Below, in pieces: positions 16,599 to 36,347 of a stretch of DNA of 38,747 nt (positions are counted from its first letter, which is position 1; each line of letters starts with the position of its first letter). Source of the stretch: a virus. The stretch covers positions 1-38,747 of IMG/VR virus record IMGVR_UViG_3300018429_000009; one strand, given 5' to 3'. The notes under the pieces were generated by a model. That model did no database searches, was not told the DNA's origin, and was given only the letters and a program-made list of their open reading frames with translations. The position numbers and the translations under genes are program-made.

Positions 16599-16774
16599 TC
16601 CCCGCCTCCCCTCTTATCGGTGGACTCGTCTTGGCATTCGTCGCAGCGGGCCGTTTCAGTGGATCGAGTCCGCGTCACCCTGTGGCCACACTCCAATTCG
16701 AGTGCCCACGCTGACCGGTTGCTCAAGTTGAGTCGCGGGTGGGCCGAAACAACCTTGCGCACGATCCCGCTCAT
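16595..16774 (-). CDS. Small CGH-CxxC zinc protein
   Basis: 59 residues, joined at both ends by ATGA overlaps. ECGHRVTRTR then CDEC gives a zinc-binding set (Cys29, His31, Cys44, Cys47). Similar short proteins with a CGH motif are frequent in phage early regions. Function unknown. Confidence 0.62.
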   Translation of the reverse strand: MSGIVRKVVSAHPRLNLSNRSAWALELECGHRVTRTRSTETARCDECQDESTDKRGGGE

Positions 16775-17277
16775 TTCGCCCCCTTATCGGTGGGGAGAGA
16801 GGATGCCTTGAGCCTGTGGCGACTGTTCTTTTTATGAATCTGATGACACTTACGGCAAACACGCGACATCACCCCTTTGTAGATCGGCAGCGGATAAACG
16901 CGCGTGTTGACCTCGTCATAGGGATGACCGCGTATGCAGTGCGTCTTCGCTGCATGTATCGCCGTGACGGACTTGCTGTGGGGAGCCAGTGTGTTCTCGG
17001 TGATGGTGGTTACCCGTAGGTGCGCCGGGTTGACGCATGAACGGTTGCAACAGAGGTGATCGACCACCATTCCAGCGGGGATTTCCGCCCCATCTGCAAT
17101 GGCCTTGGAAATCCTGTGGACTGCCATCTGCTGACCCAAGATCGCGGCGCGACCGTAACCCCCGCTTTGCTTGTGTCCGAGCCATTCCCAGCAGTCGTCA
17201 GGGCCGCCGCAACGCACGCGGCCCCAGAACCGTGACAAGGCTGAGGGATCAGTCATAACTTGCGTGGCGCGGATCAC
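16771..17277 (-). CDS. HNH homing-type endonuclease in the left early arm
   Basis: 168 residues from a GTG overlapping the upstream stop (GTGA); ATG 17256 is an alternative. The layout parallels the HNH protein at 998-1405: FWGRV...CWEWLG, GYGRA, VHRIS, the core VVDHLCCNRSCVNPAHLRV, then CIRGH and CRKCHQIHK zinc motifs. It is a nicking/cleaving nuclease likely to be a selfish homing gene. It is inserted in a string of otherwise tiny genes. Confidence 0.86.
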   Translation of the reverse strand: MIRATQVMTDPSALSRFWGRVRCGGPDDCWEWLGHKQSGGYGRAAILGQQMAVHRISKAIADGAEIPAGMVVDHLCCNRSCVNPAHLRVTTITENTLAPHSKSVTAIHAAKTHCIRGHPYDEVNTRVYPLPIYKGVMSRVCRKCHQIHKKNSRHRLKASSLPTDKGAK

Positions 17278-23950: not shown

Positions 23951-23978
23951 ATAATACACGCCGGGTTTATCCCGTCAA
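23951..23978 (-). promoter_or_regulatory. Leftward early promoter
   Basis: On the minus strand, TTGACG (23973-23978) and TATTAT (23951-23956) are separated by 16 bases. Each hexamer has one mismatch to the sigma-70 consensus. The predicted start lies near 23944, giving an about 18-base leader before the ATG at 23925. The spacer and the first half of the -10 carry one copy of the TAAACC-N3-CGTGTAT motif. Confidence 0.8.
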
Positions 23979-24023
23979 CCCCTCCCGAAAGAAATATGTT
24001 GCAGTCCTAAACCGCCCGTGTAT
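23954..24023. promoter_or_regulatory. Paired operator motif TAAACC-N3-CGTGTAT
   Basis: The 16-base motif occurs at 23954-23969 on the minus strand and at 24008-24023 on the plus strand. All 13 fixed positions are identical and only the central three bases differ. Each copy lies at the same place in its promoter (spacer into -10). A regulator bound there would shut both promoters; the Cro-like product of 24033-24236 is the obvious candidate. Confidence 0.65.
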
Positions 24024-24026
24024 ATA
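23999..24026 (+). promoter_or_regulatory. Rightward early promoter, probably leaderless
   Basis: TTGCAG (23999-24004) and TATATA (24021-24026) are 16 bases apart. The predicted transcription start (about 24032-24034) falls on the ATG at 24033, so the first message would be leaderless. The AGGAAG before the ATG is only one base away, too close to act as a normal ribosome site. Confidence 0.72.
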
Positions 24027-24032
24027 GGAAGC

Positions 24033-24236
24033 ATGTCCAAGGTTCATGCAGACTTGATCGAGGCCGTTGGCGCAGAGCTTGTCCGCCGCCAGTTCGGGCT
24101 AACTCCGCAGCGGCTGTACAACTGGAAACAGCGCGGAATACCGTTCACTCACCGCCCTGCCTTGGCGCAACTCGCAGCACTGTGCGGACAGCCTGTCCCG
24201 GCAGATTTCCTCACCCCACCCCCGAGGCCCGCATGA
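24033..24236 (+). CDS. Cro/YdaS-like DNA-binding protein
   Basis: 67 residues. AVGAELVRRQFGLTPQRLYN and WKQRGIPFTHRPALAQLA form the short helix-turn-helix and following helix typical of Cro/YdaS-type phage regulators. It sits at the divergent promoter pair and is the first rightward gene, so it likely represses one or both early promoters through the shared motif. The start ATG coincides with the predicted transcription start. It ends ATGA into the multi-HTH gene. Confidence 0.75.
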   Translation: MSKVHADLIEAVGAELVRRQFGLTPQRLYNWKQRGIPFTHRPALAQLAALCGQPVPADFLTPPPRPA

Positions 24237-25150
24237 CCCAAGACATGCCCCGAGCGGCGAAAGGCTCGTTCCCCTATCCTCCGGGATTGCGGCTTATTGC
24301 GGGTCCGGAATATTGGGACACCCGCGCTCGCCTCCTGCGGGAGATGTGGAAACGGGCTGATGAGGTCGTCTTTGAACGGCGAGGTCGGAAGCCCATCTCC
24401 ATCCCAAACGGCGCAATCGCCGCCTACCTAGCCGGGGATAGCGTGGCCGTCGTCGCCGAGGAACACGGCATCAATTGCGAAACCCTGCGCCGTCACTTGC
24501 GACAAAGAGGCATCGCCAGAGGCCAGAAACAAGTGCCGCTTTCGGTTGTCGAAGAATATCAGGCTGGCGCGACCATTACCAGCCTTGTGGCCAAGTACGG
24601 CCTTTATCCAGCGCTTATTTCGCAGGCGATCAAAGCCGCCGGCGTATCCGTGGCGCGTGGTCCGCGTTACGAATTGGAGCGCGAGCAAGACTTCGCCCGC
24701 CGCTACCTGGCAGGTGAAACCCTCAAGCAGATTGGCGACTCCTACGGCATATCCAGAGAGAGGGTGCGGCAGGTTCTGAAGAGGGCTGGCGTGAAGTCGC
24801 TCGGCTTTCGTCCCAAAAACCGCCAGAAGCCCCGCCCGCTAACCGATGCTGAGCAGGATGCTGTGAGGTTGTACAGCGAAGGCGTCCGCAAAAAGGAAAT
24901 CGTAGCGCGCACAGGGGTTGGCTATAATCGCATTACCACCATGATTACGAAACTCGGCATCAAGAAAGGTCACGGCTTTTGGCTAACGCGACCCGACGAC
25001 GAGGAACTTACCGCCACCATCGCCAAGCTTTACCTGTCGGGCATGGGCTCCGCTGAAATCGCCCGGCGTGTGCCACAGATCAACAAGTCGGAAACCGTCT
25101 ACTACTACCTCAAGAAGGCTGGCGTGCCGGCCCGAGGAAGGCGCAAATGA
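24233..25150 (+). CDS. Protein with five tandem helix-turn-helix units
   Basis: 305 residues from ATG 24233 (ATGA overlap). After a 50-residue head, five units of about 36-40 residues follow. They are at about 60-95 (SVAVVAEEHGINCETLRRHL), 104-140 (TITSLVAKYGLYPALISQAI), 153-188 (TLKQIGDSYGISRERVRQVL), 208-245 (KKEIVARTGVGYNRITTMIT) and 261-299 (SAEIARRVPQINKSETVYYY). Each begins with a YLAG- or YxxG-like helix and ends in a GV/GI turn and a basic linker. Unit 3 reads like sigma-70 region 4.2. A sequence-reading DNA-binding array is likely; targets and effect are unknown. It ends ATGA-coupled. Confidence 0.72.
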   Translation: MTQDMPRAAKGSFPYPPGLRLIAGPEYWDTRARLLREMWKRADEVVFERRGRKPISIPNGAIAAYLAGDSVAVVAEEHGINCETLRRHLRQRGIARGQKQVPLSVVEEYQAGATITSLVAKYGLYPALISQAIKAAGVSVARGPRYELEREQDFARRYLAGETLKQIGDSYGISRERVRQVLKRAGVKSLGFRPKNRQKPRPLTDAEQDAVRLYSEGVRKKEIVARTGVGYNRITTMITKLGIKKGHGFWLTRPDDEELTATIAKLYLSGMGSAEIARRVPQINKSETVYYYLKKAGVPARGRRK

Positions 25151-25437
25151 ATCCGAGCGGACTCCCCCAACCCCGCTCAGAGGGCGCTACTGCTGGCAGC
25201 GGCGCTTTGCCCCATAGAGATGCGAACGATTTTGACCTCGTAAAGGTCTCAGGCGCGGCGAAGCGGAGGGCTGGCGAGCAAAGGCACCCTACATTCGATC
25301 CTTGCTTCAACGAAGCGGTGAAGCGGCACTCACACCATGCAGTCCATCACCATTTGGCAATTGCTTGGTTTCGAGGTTTCGATATGCCTCACGAGGCTGA
25401 CTGGATTCGCAGCGTCGCAAAAGTCGATGCCGCATGA
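25147..25437 (+). CDS. His-rich small protein, unknown
   Basis: 96 residues, ATGA-coupled at both ends. The N-terminal half is Gly/Ala/Arg-rich and looks disordered. The second half contains a histidine cluster (KRHSHHAVHHHLAIAWFRG) that could bind metal. No family recognised. Confidence 0.55.
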   Translation: MNPSGLPQPRSEGATAGSGALPHRDANDFDLVKVSGAAKRRAGEQRHPTFDPCFNEAVKRHSHHAVHHHLAIAWFRGFDMPHEADWIRSVAKVDAA

Positions 25438-25625
25438 CTGGCCGCATTTCCCGCAATCCTGAGATGATGGGCGGCGCTTACTGCATTCGCGGTCAGCGCA
25501 TACCGGTCTGGACGATAAAGGGTTGCGTGCGCGGCGGATGGTCGAACGCGACGATCCTATCCGAATACCCCACTCTCACGCAAGCCGACATTGACGCGGC
25601 GCTAGCGTTTCGGAGGAGATCCTGA
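25434..25625 (+). CDS. DUF433 family protein
   Basis: 63 residues covering the whole DUF433 unit: RNPEMMGGAYCIRGQRIPVW, a helix ending GGWSNATILSEYPTLT, then QADIDAALAF. In cellular genomes DUF433 proteins often act as antitoxins or DNA-binding partners (VapB-like). Here no adjacent PIN toxin is visible, so a regulatory or anti-toxin role is open. The stop overlaps the next ATG (TGATG). Confidence 0.8.
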   Translation: MTGRISRNPEMMGGAYCIRGQRIPVWTIKGCVRGGWSNATILSEYPTLTQADIDAALAFRRRS

Positions 25626-28020: not shown

Positions 28021-28381
28021 CGATGCCTCCACAGACCGGCCAAGGCGTGTTTTGGTGTGCGGCGGGCGGAACTTCATTTGCGGTGATATCGTCGTGGAAA
28101 CGCTTAAGAGGCTCAACCCCTCTGTGGTGATCGAGGGAGGGTCGCGAGGTGCCGACACCTATGCGGGCTTATGGGCGAACTGCTGCGGTATTGAGCGTGT
28201 GACGTTTCGAGCCGATTGGGCAACCCATGGTAAGGCCGCCGGGCCAATTCGCAACCAAAAAATGCTCGACGAAGGGGTTCCCGATCTTGTGGTGGCCTTC
28301 CCAGGAGGGAGGGGTACGGCAGACATGGTGGCGCGGGCTACGAAGGCCGGTGTGCCCTGTCTCGATCTACGGACCTCCTAA
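28013..28381 (+). CDS. YspA/DUF2493 SLOG-family protein
   Basis: 122 residues from ATG 28013 (ATG 28007 sits too close to the GAGGA). The family pattern is plain: [10 protein letters not shown] (strand, loop), [18 protein letters not shown], then [20 protein letters not shown] and [23 protein letters not shown] proteins bind nucleotide-derived ligands in a Rossmannoid pocket (GGSRGAD). In bacteria they act in nucleotide signalling, and some serve defence. In phages the role is unknown. Ends TAATG into the DnaA-like gene. Confidence 0.85.
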
Positions 28382-28806
28382 TGCCCCCTCCCCAATCCAT
28401 AAACGACCGGTCCATGCTTCGGCTCGCAACGGTTACATTCTACGGCCAGGAGGAATGGCTGATCAGGAAGGGGCTGTTGCCGGGGCTGTTGATCTATAAG
28501 GACATAACCTGTGGGCGACTGGTTTCTGTTGGTGAGATACAAGCGGCCGTGGCGCTGTATTTCAAGCTTCCAGTCCGTGTGATGAGCGATGGCAGCCGCT
28601 ACCGTGAACACGCTCGCCCTCGGCAGGTCGCCATGTATCTGTCCAGACAGCTTACCCCTATGTCGCTTCCGGAGATTGGCCGGCGCTTCGGGCGCCGCGA
28701 CCACACCACCGTCATTCACGCCATCCGCCGGATCGAAAAGCTGATGGCCGAGGGTTCAGAGATCGCGCTGGCGGTGCTGACACTGAAGAAGGAACTGGAG
28801 GCGTGA
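28381..28806 (+). CDS. DnaA domain IV-like DNA-binding protein, no ATPase
   Basis: 141 residues. The second half ([20 protein letters not shown], then [20 protein letters not shown], 95-114) is the DnaA DNA-binding domain with its GRRDHTTV signature. The first about 50 residues are unique. There is no AAA+ domain. It could bind DnaA boxes of host or phage DNA, or act as a competitor of host DnaA; neither is shown. It ends GTGA-coupled to the next gene and lies about 1.5 kb before a possible origin. Confidence 0.85.
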
Positions 28807-32134: not shown

Positions 32135-32656
32135 ATGAGAGGCGCTGACGAAAGAACTTTGGTGGATATGTCGAAGGTGGAGCGCCATTTCGAGGCGCAG
32201 GATCATTTGGAAGCATTCGTGCGCGAGAGCAACCGGATCGAGGGCATCCACTCAACCGCCGCTCGCCACATCAGCGCTCACATCGCCTTTCTGGGCGGCC
32301 CTGTTACCATACCAGCCTTGATCGAGCTTGTCGCCGCGCTACAGCCAGACGCCCGCTTTCGCAACTCGCCGGACATTCCGGGAGTGCGCGTCGGCAACCA
32401 CATTGCGCCGCCTTCAGGTCCGCAAATAGAAGCCGACTTGCGCAAAGTCCTCGCCATGCGCGATCCATGGAAACAGCATGTCGCCTATGAAACGCTTCAT
32501 CCGTTCACAGATGGCAACGGACGATCCGGACGGGCAGTGTGGCTTCATCGCTTCTGGCATGAGCCAGAACTCGACCCGTACGCCGTGCATCGAGGTTTCC
32601 TGCACTCGTTCTATTACCAAACGCTTGCAAGTTCTCGCCCTATGGAAGAGGTATAG
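32135..32656 (+). CDS. Fic-domain protein with built-in inhibitory motif
   Basis: 173 residues; GCGAGGAGGCAGACG before the ATG. The Fic motif HPFTDGNGRSGR (122-133) is complete: catalytic His122, anion hole and Arg133. A target-flap-like IPGVRVGNHIAPPSGPQIEA precedes it. In the N-terminal helix, SNRIEG (32-37) fits the (S/T)xxxE(G/N) inhibitory motif, whose Glu blocks the ATP site. Fic enzymes usually transfer AMP to Ser, Thr or Tyr of target proteins; the autoinhibited class is regulated by displacing that Glu. Targets are unknown. The next gene starts one base after its stop. Confidence 0.88.
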   Translation: MRGADERTLVDMSKVERHFEAQDHLEAFVRESNRIEGIHSTAARHISAHIAFLGGPVTIPALIELVAALQPDARFRNSPDIPGVRVGNHIAPPSGPQIEADLRKVLAMRDPWKQHVAYETLHPFTDGNGRSGRAVWLHRFWHEPELDPYAVHRGFLHSFYYQTLASSRPMEEV

Positions 32657-33049
32657 ATGATGGAAGAGGCAAGGCGCGTTCCTTCGGAACCGGGCCCTCG
32701 CAAGCCGAGCCCTGACGGTCTCGGCCCTTCGGGCTTCGATCCCTCGCGTGAGGTTTACGGCATTCCGGAACTGGAGGTGTGGCTCGCCAATCGAGCAGAG
32801 ATACTTCGCAACCTGCAGAGTGGCGAAAAGGGTGCTATAGGGCGCGGATTATACGCATACGCCGCCGACGTCGTGGAGGGGCTTGCCAAGAGCGCCTCAA
32901 CAGATCTCCTGATCGCACGGCTGAGAACCAAAATACCCGGATCTAAGCTCGCCAAAATCCGCGATAAATCCCAGCAGAAACCGCAGTTTTCCGCTGATCT
33001 TGGGGCGGATCTACAATGCGATGAAAGCCCGAAGGGAGACGGCAATTGA
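32657..33049 (+). CDS. Protein between Fic and NusG-like genes, unknown
   Basis: 130 residues from ATG 32657 (or ATG 32660). A Pro-rich disordered start (SEPGPRKPSPDGLGPSGFDP), then helices (LEVWLANRAEILRNLQSGEK; AIGRGLYAYAADVVEGLAKS), then a charged tail. No family recognised; a Fic-related role is possible only by neighbourhood. Confidence 0.55.
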   Translation: MMEEARRVPSEPGPRKPSPDGLGPSGFDPSREVYGIPELEVWLANRAEILRNLQSGEKGAIGRGLYAYAADVVEGLAKSASTDLLIARLRTKIPGSKLAKIRDKSQQKPQFSADLGADLQCDESPKGDGN

Positions 33050-33537
33050 CAGACGCATGGGTCGTCCTTCGCACAAGCTCCCGCGCCACTCTCCGCCTTG
33101 CCGCAAGCCTCTCCAGCGACGGAATCGATGCGTGGAGCCCGAAGCTGGTCATGCCCAAGCGCCCGATCCCGATCATCCCGCGCTACGTGTTCGCCCGTTC
33201 TGGCCACCTCGCCGAGCTTCACGCCCTTGTCGAGCGCCGGGGGAAGCATGACGCCTTCTCCATCGTCTACAGCTTCGGCCGGCCCGGCTTTATCGCGGAT
33301 GACGAGCTTGAGCCCTTCCGAAGCGCCGAGATCGGATGTGCGGCACAGGCGACGAAATGCGGGTTCGCGCTGGGCCGCGCCGTTCGGGTAGCAGAGGGCA
33401 TTGCTGCCGGCATGGAGGGGTTGGTCGAGCGGAGCAACTGGCGCTACACGGAGGTCGCTTTCAATGGCGGAAAGCCGATGGAAATTGCGACTTCCATATT
33501 GCGGGAGATTGTGCCACAAGGGCGCGAGGCCGCTTGA
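33046..33537 (+). CDS. NusG/RfaH-like protein, possible late antiterminator
   Basis: 163 residues from a TTG that overlaps the previous stop (TTGA), AAGGGAG upstream. The N-terminal half has the NGN-domain order: WVVLRTSSRATLRLAASLSS, DAWSPKLVMPKR, PIIPRYVFARSGH, then YSFGRPGFIADDELEPFRS. The C-terminal part (GRAVRVAEGIAAGMEGLVER) resembles a KOW unit. NusG-type proteins bind RNA polymerase and change pausing or termination. As the last early gene, directly before the late operon, it occupies the place of a lambda-Q-type antiterminator. Fold assignment is by pattern and role by position. Confidence 0.65.
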   Translation: MTDAWVVLRTSSRATLRLAASLSSDGIDAWSPKLVMPKRPIPIIPRYVFARSGHLAELHALVERRGKHDAFSIVYSFGRPGFIADDELEPFRSAEIGCAAQATKCGFALGRAVRVAEGIAAGMEGLVERSNWRYTEVAFNGGKPMEIATSILREIVPQGREAA

Positions 33538-34616: not shown

Positions 34617-34942
34617 TGGCAAATAAACAAAGGACAGTTATGCCGCGCTCCCCCGGCCGCCCCAAAGGTTCGGCGAACAAGGTGACGGCTGCGGTCAAGG
34701 ACATGATCGTTCACGCGCTCGACGAGGCCGGCGGCGTAGACTATCTGGTTCGGCAGTCGGCTGAGAACCCGGCCGCCTTCATGACTCTCGTCGGCAAGGT
34801 GATTCCCCTTCAGGTGAACAGCAATGTCGACATTGTGGATCGAACCGCCGCAGTACAGCGAGCTAGCGAAGAGGTACGAGCGCTATTTGGTGAGCGACCC
34901 CGCGATGGCTCGGGAGCTGATGGCCGAGGCCTGCCGCACTGA
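34616..34942 (+). CDS. terS: Terminase small subunit
   Basis: 108 residues from ATG 34616. A basic, GRPKGSANK-type opening (PRSPGRPKGSANKVTAAVKD) followed by a helical segment (MIVHALDEAGGVDYLVRQSA; NPAAFMTLVGKVIPLQV) is typical of a common small-terminase-like family before large terminases. It recognises the packaging site. The last 119 bases overlap the large subunit gene in another frame, so the two are coupled. The HTH itself is not obvious by eye. Confidence 0.7.
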   Translation: MANKQRTVMPRSPGRPKGSANKVTAAVKDMIVHALDEAGGVDYLVRQSAENPAAFMTLVGKVIPLQVNSNVDIVDRTAAVQRASEEVRALFGERPRDGSGADGRGLPH

Positions 34943-36347
34943 TCTTTATTTCCTTCTGCGGTACGGGCTGAAGCGCAAGGACTGCCACAACCGTTGGGTC
35001 TATGAGAGATGTCGGGAGGTTCAGGCAGCTCCGGACGGCTATCTCGACCTCTGGGCACGCGAGCATTATAAAAGTACAATCCTCACCTTCGCGCTCAACA
35101 TCCAGAACATCCTCCGCGATCAAGAAGTGACGATAGGCATATTCAGCCACACGCGCCCGATAGCCAAGGCATTCCTTCGCCAGATCAAGCAGGAGTTCGA
35201 GACCAACGAGACGCTGAAGGGATGGTTTCCGGATGTGCTTTGGGCGGACCCTCGCAAGGAAAGCCCCAAGTGGTCTGAGGACGAGGGGATAACGGTCAAG
35301 CGCAAGACCAACCCGAAAGAGGCCACTGTAGAGGCATGGGGGTTGGTGGACGGGCAACCTACGTCGAAGCACTTCAAGGTTTTGGATTACGACGATGTGG
35401 TTACGCGGGAATCCGTCTCGACGCCTGAGATGATGCTGAAGACCACCGATGCGCTCGCCCTTTCGTTCAATCTCGGTGCGCATGGTGGGCGTCGGCGCTT
35501 TGCTGGAACGCGCTATCACTACAACGATAGCTACCGGACGTTGATCGAGAGGGGTACTGTCATTCCTCGCATCTATCCGGCGACGAAGGACGGAAAGGTG
35601 GAGGGCGAGCCGGTATTCCTGACCCGAGAGGAGTTGGCCAAGAAGCGCGCCGATCAAGGTCCCTACGTCTACGCATGTCAAATGCTCCTCGACCCGAAGG
35701 CCGACGAGACGCAGGGCTTCAAGGAGGAGTGGCTGAGATACGCGTCCGTCGAGACAAGGGGTCAGAACCTCGTCATCCTGGTAGACCCTGCGAGCGCTAA
35801 GAAGAAGACGAGCGACTACACCTCTGCATGGTGCCTTGGGCTTGGACCGGACAGGAACGTCTACGTTCACGACATGGTGCGGGACAGGCTGTCGCTGACC
35901 CAGCGGGCGGACATGCTGATGAACTGGCACCGCCGCTGGCAGCCCATGGCGGTAGGCTATGAGCAGTACGGCATGATGGCGGATATCGAGCACATCAAGG
36001 ATCGGCAGGACAGGGAGAACTACCGCTTTCCAATTACGTCTGTCGGTGGGGCGATGCCGAAGTTGGACCGGATACGCCGGCTGATCCCTTGGTTCGAGAA
36101 GGGCCGCATATTCCTTCCGCCGAAGTTGGACAAGACGAACTATGAGGGCGTCACGGTCGATCTCGTCAAGGCATTCGTGAATGAGGAGTATCTGGCCTTC
36201 CCGGTCGCGGCGCATGACGACATGCTTGACGCGCTGGCGAGGTTCCTTGAGGAGGACTTGCCGATAGCGTGGCCTGCGGCGATGCCTTACGAGGATGAAG
36301 ACGAGGATTTCGAGACGAAGGGGCGCTCGGCTATCGCGGGGTATTGA
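34824..36347 (+). CDS. terL: Terminase large subunit
   Basis: 507 residues. ATPase: Walker A-like REHYKST (79-85, after LDLWA), Walker B KVLDYDD (185-191), and the coupling FAGTRYHYND (226-235). RNase-H-type nuclease acids: VILVDPASAKK (Asp321), TSDYTSAW (Asp331), GYEQYG (Glu380), and AAHDDMLDALARF (Asp465/466, Asp469). It cuts and translocates genome DNA into the prohead through the portal. Length and motifs match full-size headful-type terminases. The start is inside the small-subunit gene. Confidence 0.93.
   Translation: MSTLWIEPPQYSELAKRYERYLVSDPAMARELMAEACRTDLYFLLRYGLKRKDCHNRWVYERCREVQAAPDGYLDLWAREHYKSTILTFALNIQNILRDQEVTIGIFSHTRPIAKAFLRQIKQEFETNETLKGWFPDVLWADPRKESPKWSEDEGITVKRKTNPKEATVEAWGLVDGQPTSKHFKVLDYDDVVTRESVSTPEMMLKTTDALALSFNLGAHGGRRRFAGTRYHYNDSYRTLIERGTVIPRIYPATKDGKVEGEPVFLTREELAKKRADQGPYVYACQMLLDPKADETQGFKEEWLRYASVETRGQNLVILVDPASAKKKTSDYTSAWCLGLGPDRNVYVHDMVRDRLSLTQRADMLMNWHRRWQPMAVGYEQYGMMADIEHIKDRQDRENYRFPITSVGGAMPKLDRIRRLIPWFEKGRIFLPPKLDKTNYEGVTVDLVKAFVNEEYLAFPVAAHDDMLDALARFLEEDLPIAWPAAMPYEDEDEDFETKGRSAIAGY

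Follow-up and report, generated by a model that had tools for sequence, protein, structure and literature searches.

The second gene of the rightward early operon of this virus encodes a protein with five predicted helix-turn-helix (HTH) units in series, and it stands in a slot which in related phages is held by a GIY-YIG(-HTH) gene coupled to a Cro-like gene. The DNA analyzed (hereafter the window) is a whole IMG/VR virus record of 38,747 bases. The slot had been missed by a first-pass annotation of the same DNA, made from the sequence alone, and what is new here is this context: an array of five units, free of any nuclease domain, occupies the Cro-coupled GIY-YIG slot and has one unit type in common with the family otherwise found there.

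The organization of the locus is given in Table 1. The leftward early genes start at 23952 and are followed by the divergent intergenic region, the Cro-like gene and the array gene. The last two are translationally coupled through their ATGA overlap, and the array gene does directly follow the Cro-like regulator, as the first-pass annotation had stated. Lambdoid phages have cII as second gene following the divergent repressor (PMC5917428). The array gene has this CII-type position after cro, and the Pfam scan of its product listed no match to Phage_CII up to E 10. No CI-like repressor or integrase was recognized in the window, so that the context of the switch is only partly present. The record is possibly incomplete (it stops within the portal gene, and no capsid genes were recognized), and the slot after the Cro-like gene is intact.

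Table 1. Coordinates of the array gene, of its HTH units and of the GIY-YIG genes found in the same slot
Feature	Position	Strand	Comment
Divergent intergenic region, candidate operator place	23953..24017	.	65 bp; putative
Cro-like HTH gene	24018..24236	+	Upstream partner; alternative start ATG 24033
Ribosome site of array gene	GAGG 24224-24227	+	Five bases 5' of ATG 24233
ATGA stop/start overlap, Cro-like gene/array gene	24233..24236	+	Read from sequence; 4 bases
Array gene	24233..25150	+	ATG 24233, stop at 25150, 305 aa
N-terminal 58 residues	24233..24406	+	Low pLDDT in both models; possible helix 27-45
HTH unit 1, residues 59-92	24407..24508	+	AlphaFold2 helices 59-66, 71-78, 82-91; independent HMM 20.8 bits
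HTH unit 2, residues 103-135	24539..24637	+	AlphaFold2 helices 103-110, 115-122, 126-135; independent HMM 13.2 bits
HTH unit 3, residues 148-184, sigma-70 region 4.2-like	24674..24784	+	AlphaFold2 helices 148-159, 164-171, 175-184; Sigma70_r4 39 bits, HTH_28; HMM 17.6 bits
HTH unit 4, residues 205-241	24845..24955	+	AlphaFold2 helices 205-215, 220-227, 231-241; HTH_7, KORA; HMM 6.5 bits
HTH unit 5, residues 257-295	25001..25117	+	AlphaFold2 helices 257-268, 273-279, 286-295, pLDDT about 75-90; DUF433, Terminase_5 HTH matches
GIY-YIG slot gene loci	L029 14086-14813; L036 4941-5758; L037 3512-4305
GIY-YIG slot gene loci, continued	L039 3501-4216; L046 2280-3043; also L060-L063, L065, L066

Structural models and sequence profiles both confirm the prediction of five three-helix HTH units on flexible basic linkers. 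AlphaFold2, run on the single sequence without alignment, gave exactly five helix triplets with pLDDT mostly between 70 and 90. The linkers had pLDDT below 50 and the pTM was 0.23; the protein would thus resemble beads on a string, the relative placement of the units being undefined. The units fill about 240 of the 305 residues (span 59-299) and the protein is basic (57 K+R vs 31 D+E), as are its linkers, in agreement with the first description. The Pfam scan found HTH_28/HTH_23 in three stretches. A second line of evidence came from an independent HMM, built solely from the HTH units of two other proteins, gp458 of Caulobacter phage C1 and a GIY-YIG protein of phage BcepSauron. Unit 5 was the weakest with this HMM (two pieces, of 1.3 and 0.7 bits), and none of 2000 shuffled copies of the array protein had more than one segment scoring at least 0 bits. 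Three or more HTH folds in series are therefore predicted in both ways, five by AlphaFold2 and four to five by the independent HMM as judged against shuffles; fewer than three in the structure prediction was the outcome on which the first-pass annotation would have given up the array. The likeness between units is weak: pairs 1-3, 2-3 and 3-4 exceed all of 300 shuffles and the other pairs less, which suggests that the units are old or were shuffled in, and are not fresh tandem copies.

At the two ends of the protein, the Pfam matches on unit 5 (DUF433 and the Terminase_5 HTH) cover residues 261-295, and no fold was assigned to residues 1-50, for which a separate model of residues 1-105 was also of low confidence. 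For the 54 N-terminal residues the only matches were to unrelated genes, phage tail genes for the most part, at E near 1 or worse, and they were judged to be due to chance. A DUF433 gene is also present two genes downstream of the array gene (25434-25625, 74 bits).

The distribution of GIY-YIG genes with respect to Cro-like genes was then analyzed. A GIY-YIG gene of the MUG113/T5orf172 type immediately follows a small HTH (Cro/CI-like) gene, with an ATGA-type overlap, in 11 phages. These phages were reached from four starting points, i.e. the relatives of the terminase, of the Cro-like protein, of unit 3 and of the GIY-YIG proteins; those found through a GIY-YIG protein were not picked by neighbour, and those found through the terminase, Cro or unit 3 were not picked for a nuclease-Cro coupling. 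A scan with an alignment of HTH arrays gave three contigs (L037, L038 and L039, the first two carrying the same protein), in which a GIY-YIG domain of this type comes first and a single HTH last, directly after a Cro-like gene with the ATGA overlap. The window Cro-like protein led to L036, whose Cro-like protein is 50% identical to it over 58 residues and whose next gene is a GIY-YIG gene with the same overlap. When MUG113 was searched in the window and 14 terminase-related records, the single match, directly after a Cro-like gene, was in G003, a sister phage of the window by its terminase (72%). The pair is also found in an isolated phage, Rhizobium phage RHph_I1_23 (EVC28_052/053), which is annotated with an integrase and attachment sites, and two GIY-YIG scans added six further contigs, all with the pair (the upstream gene of L066 being less clearly Cro-like). 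No description of such a Cro-coupled GIY-YIG cassette was found in the literature searched.

The array gene has the slot and the ATGA coupling in common with these genes. It differs from them in that their products have an N-terminal nuclease-fold domain, which is absent from the array, and at most one recognized HTH. MUG113, T5orf172 and GIY-YIG had no match anywhere in the window record; in these same searches MUG113 matched in G003, GIY-YIG in BcepSauron, and T5orf172 in control genomes only. The link between the two builds lies in unit 3: its residues agree with those of the HTH in the Cro-coupled GIY-YIG proteins at 28 of 38 positions for L039 and 27 of 38 for L037 (71-74%), so that in at least one lineage of these proteins the HTH is a close relative of unit 3. 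Part of this likeness could be due to a sigma-4.2-like helix type common to both.

The association of GIY-YIG genes with cro does not extend to all such genes. Outside the group, six more distant genes of the MUG113 type in annotated phages have no preceding annotated Cro-like gene, and in RHph_I3_18 the MUG113-type gene does not follow a Cro-like gene; the linkage thus marks a subgroup. Other sister phages have unrelated genes after their Cro-like gene, which indicates that the slot tolerates many things. In one of them (G001; L027 8680-9771) the early operon after the Cro-like gene contains a 363-aa protein which by eye looks like ParB-N plus a DNA methyltransferase. Ala-Ala C-termini are seen in about 9 of the 11 slot GIY-YIG proteins and 9 of their 11 Cro-like partners, compared to 8.4% of the 334 ORFs of these loci (18 of the 97 with ATGA ends), counts which ignore kinship; these ends are possibly a degradation tag of the ClpXP type.

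Concerning the rest of the genome, the large terminase (34824-36347) has 22 relatives in IMG/VR, and those among GenBank phages are distant; no host was obtained by scanning genomes for the terminase. Shortly before it, a NusG-like protein matching a PHROG transcription antiterminator family is encoded (33046-33537, E 1.5e-12; 82% identical in L005 and L007). The window also encodes a small protein with the C-terminal DNA-binding domain of DnaA and no room for the ATPase part (28381-28806, 94 bits), and a Fic/DOC-family protein (32135-32656).

To relate the array to known proteins we examined proteins of similar build. Searches of IMG/VR, GTDB genomes and phage and plasmid collections, by short exact peptide patterns or BLAST, yielded no close full-length homologue; distant ones may escape such scans. 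BLAST matches at 25-29% identity were obtained with C1 gp458 and with the BcepSauron GIY-YIG protein. Proteins with three or more units, which the first-pass annotation had proposed to look for, do exist. C1 gp458 and WP_329204021.1, from a Streptomyces plasmid, are stand-alone proteins of five HTH units (the last one weak in the plasmid protein) without a nuclease domain. Both are less than 30% identical to the array, neither is Cro-coupled, and both are uncharacterized. The GIY-YIG endonuclease of the Burkholderia jumbo phages BcepSauron and BcepSaruman resembles the array in general type by its tandem HTHs (25.5% identity across residues 68-240) and differs by its N-terminal GIY-YIG domain followed by four units. 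Array architecture is therefore already known, and to rank the protein among the best candidates for something new, as was first done, was too strong. The first-pass annotation had recognized no described phage protein of this exact build; a five-unit phage protein exists in C1, and the stand-alone arrays are unnamed and unstudied.

These relatives raise the question of whether the array represents what is left of a free-standing homing-type endonuclease, or its DNA-targeting half, the GIY-YIG domain having been lost, and would be a selfish or decaying gene or a guide for a nuclease encoded elsewhere. The four-HTH tail of the BcepSauron enzyme is consistent with this, as is the surrounding of the stand-alone arrays: C1 gp458 adjoins a gene that looks HNH-containing, and the plasmid protein adjoins an endonuclease VII gene and an integrase. 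The window itself has two HNH-like genes, at 998-1405 (PHROG) and at 16771-17277 (by eye from the sequence), and the array gene is absent from 14 sister-phage records. However, both HNH genes are more than 6 kb away and no nuclease gene adjoins the array gene. Moreover the array gene is an undisrupted frame that has a start and a ribosome site of its own, and it is Cro-coupled like its nuclease counterparts. We consider this reading unlikely; it ranks second, behind the early regulator described below.

Precedents for how such a protein would work come from two other systems. The best PDB match by sequence is 2LVS, a CRISPR-repeat binding protein with tandem HTHs (E 3e-6, local over units 4-5); the PDB fold search gave nothing under E 0.001, with 2LVS again at the top. 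The archaeal proteins Cbp1 and Cbp2, the group represented by 2LVS, have, like the array, tandem HTHs, which in their case align along one DNA site; they differ by having two or three units and CRISPR repeats as target. In Cbp1 three HTHs are arranged sequentially along the CRISPR repeat (PMC10883916). A repeat scan of the window found no regularly spaced repeat array of the CRISPR type. In I-TevI, the DNA-binding part, which also extends along its site, is modular and of the beads-on-string kind, as modelled for the array; it consists of a Zn finger, a helix and one HTH fused to GIY-YIG, whereas the array has five HTHs. This part also acts as a transcriptional autorepressor of I-TevI, an activity that does not depend on cleavage (PMC2988022).

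Cbp1 also forms chromatin-like structures with Cren7 (PMC10883916), and the array could by analogy be an architecture or shielding protein which bridges or coats phage or host DNA with little sequence preference, in a chromatin-like or anti-restriction role. Several weakly similar HTHs, basic linkers and a net positive charge are in line with such a role. Yet Cbp1 itself is sequence-specific, and the recognition helices differ among the units of the array, a difference easier to reconcile with a specific composite site than with coating in general. An architecture or shielding role seems quite improbable.

Unit 3 was first described as similar to sigma-70 region 4.2, and this likeness is borne out: its Sigma70_r4 score is well above the Pfam cut-off of 24.1, and its model can be superposed on region 4 chains with an rmsd of 1.2-2.9 for about 40 residues and a Z near 7, a result equalled by many other HTHs. 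The rows of the structural alignment (VIA-align) are mostly single HTHs placed on unit 3. The identity to a phage sigma factor (18 of 25) covers a shorter stretch than the 38-residue match to L037 and L039. Only region 4.2-like sequence is present: the Pfam scan of the array protein gave no match to sigma region 2 or 3, with no Sigma70_r2 listed up to E 10, and the reading of the protein as a full sigma factor was rejected since region 2 is missing. A recruiter of RNA polymerase, with unit 3 binding the beta flap or the -35 element, is very improbable in view of these missing regions and of the region 4.2-like HTHs also present in GIY-YIG proteins of the slot, which make the likeness a sign of a DNA-reading helix and not of a sigma function.

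Given the Cbp1 and I-TevI precedents and the position second after cro, we take as most likely, with slightly better than even confidence, that the array protein is an early DNA-binding regulator with a composite site, in the slot of the Cro-coupled GIY-YIG partner. Predicted DNA binding is well supported; sequence-specific binding, a target and a regulatory effect are what we infer from it. The five different units on their flexible linkers would lie in series along one extended, non-repeated DNA site, of roughly 40-60 bp if all five are engaged. Reading of a long DNA site, one of the roles first suggested for the array, would thus be the best-supported mechanism by analogy with these two precedents. 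Its most likely binding place would be the divergent early promoter region or its vicinity, and it would repress or tune early transcription together with Cro. An operator would most likely lie in the divergent intergenic region, which a leftward -35/-10-like site overlaps. The operator search speaks against this reading: none was identified, the intergenic region being free of repeats of at least 7 bases and the window of long recurring DNA motifs, although a single non-repeated site is what the composite-site model predicts.

As to its origin, the array may have descended from, or been swapped for, a Cro-coupled GIY-YIG-HTH partner, the nuclease domain being absent here and the HTH units having presumably been multiplied or shuffled in. 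A broader proposal, which is tentative and which we find rather doubtful as a whole, is that the GIY-YIG nuclease partner and the nuclease-free HTH array are interchangeable in the Cro-coupled slot of this phage group, and that unit shuffling builds a regulator with a long composite DNA address; the five-unit array would then be a natural modular reader of about 50 bp of DNA, acting together with Cro in the early switch. The swap in the slot may be functional or just mosaic phage evolution. If the proposal is true, a phage switch would have gained a regulator, at a fixed position, through the exchange of a nuclease for an array of DNA-reading modules, and the array would offer a small natural system for how several HTHs share one long site.
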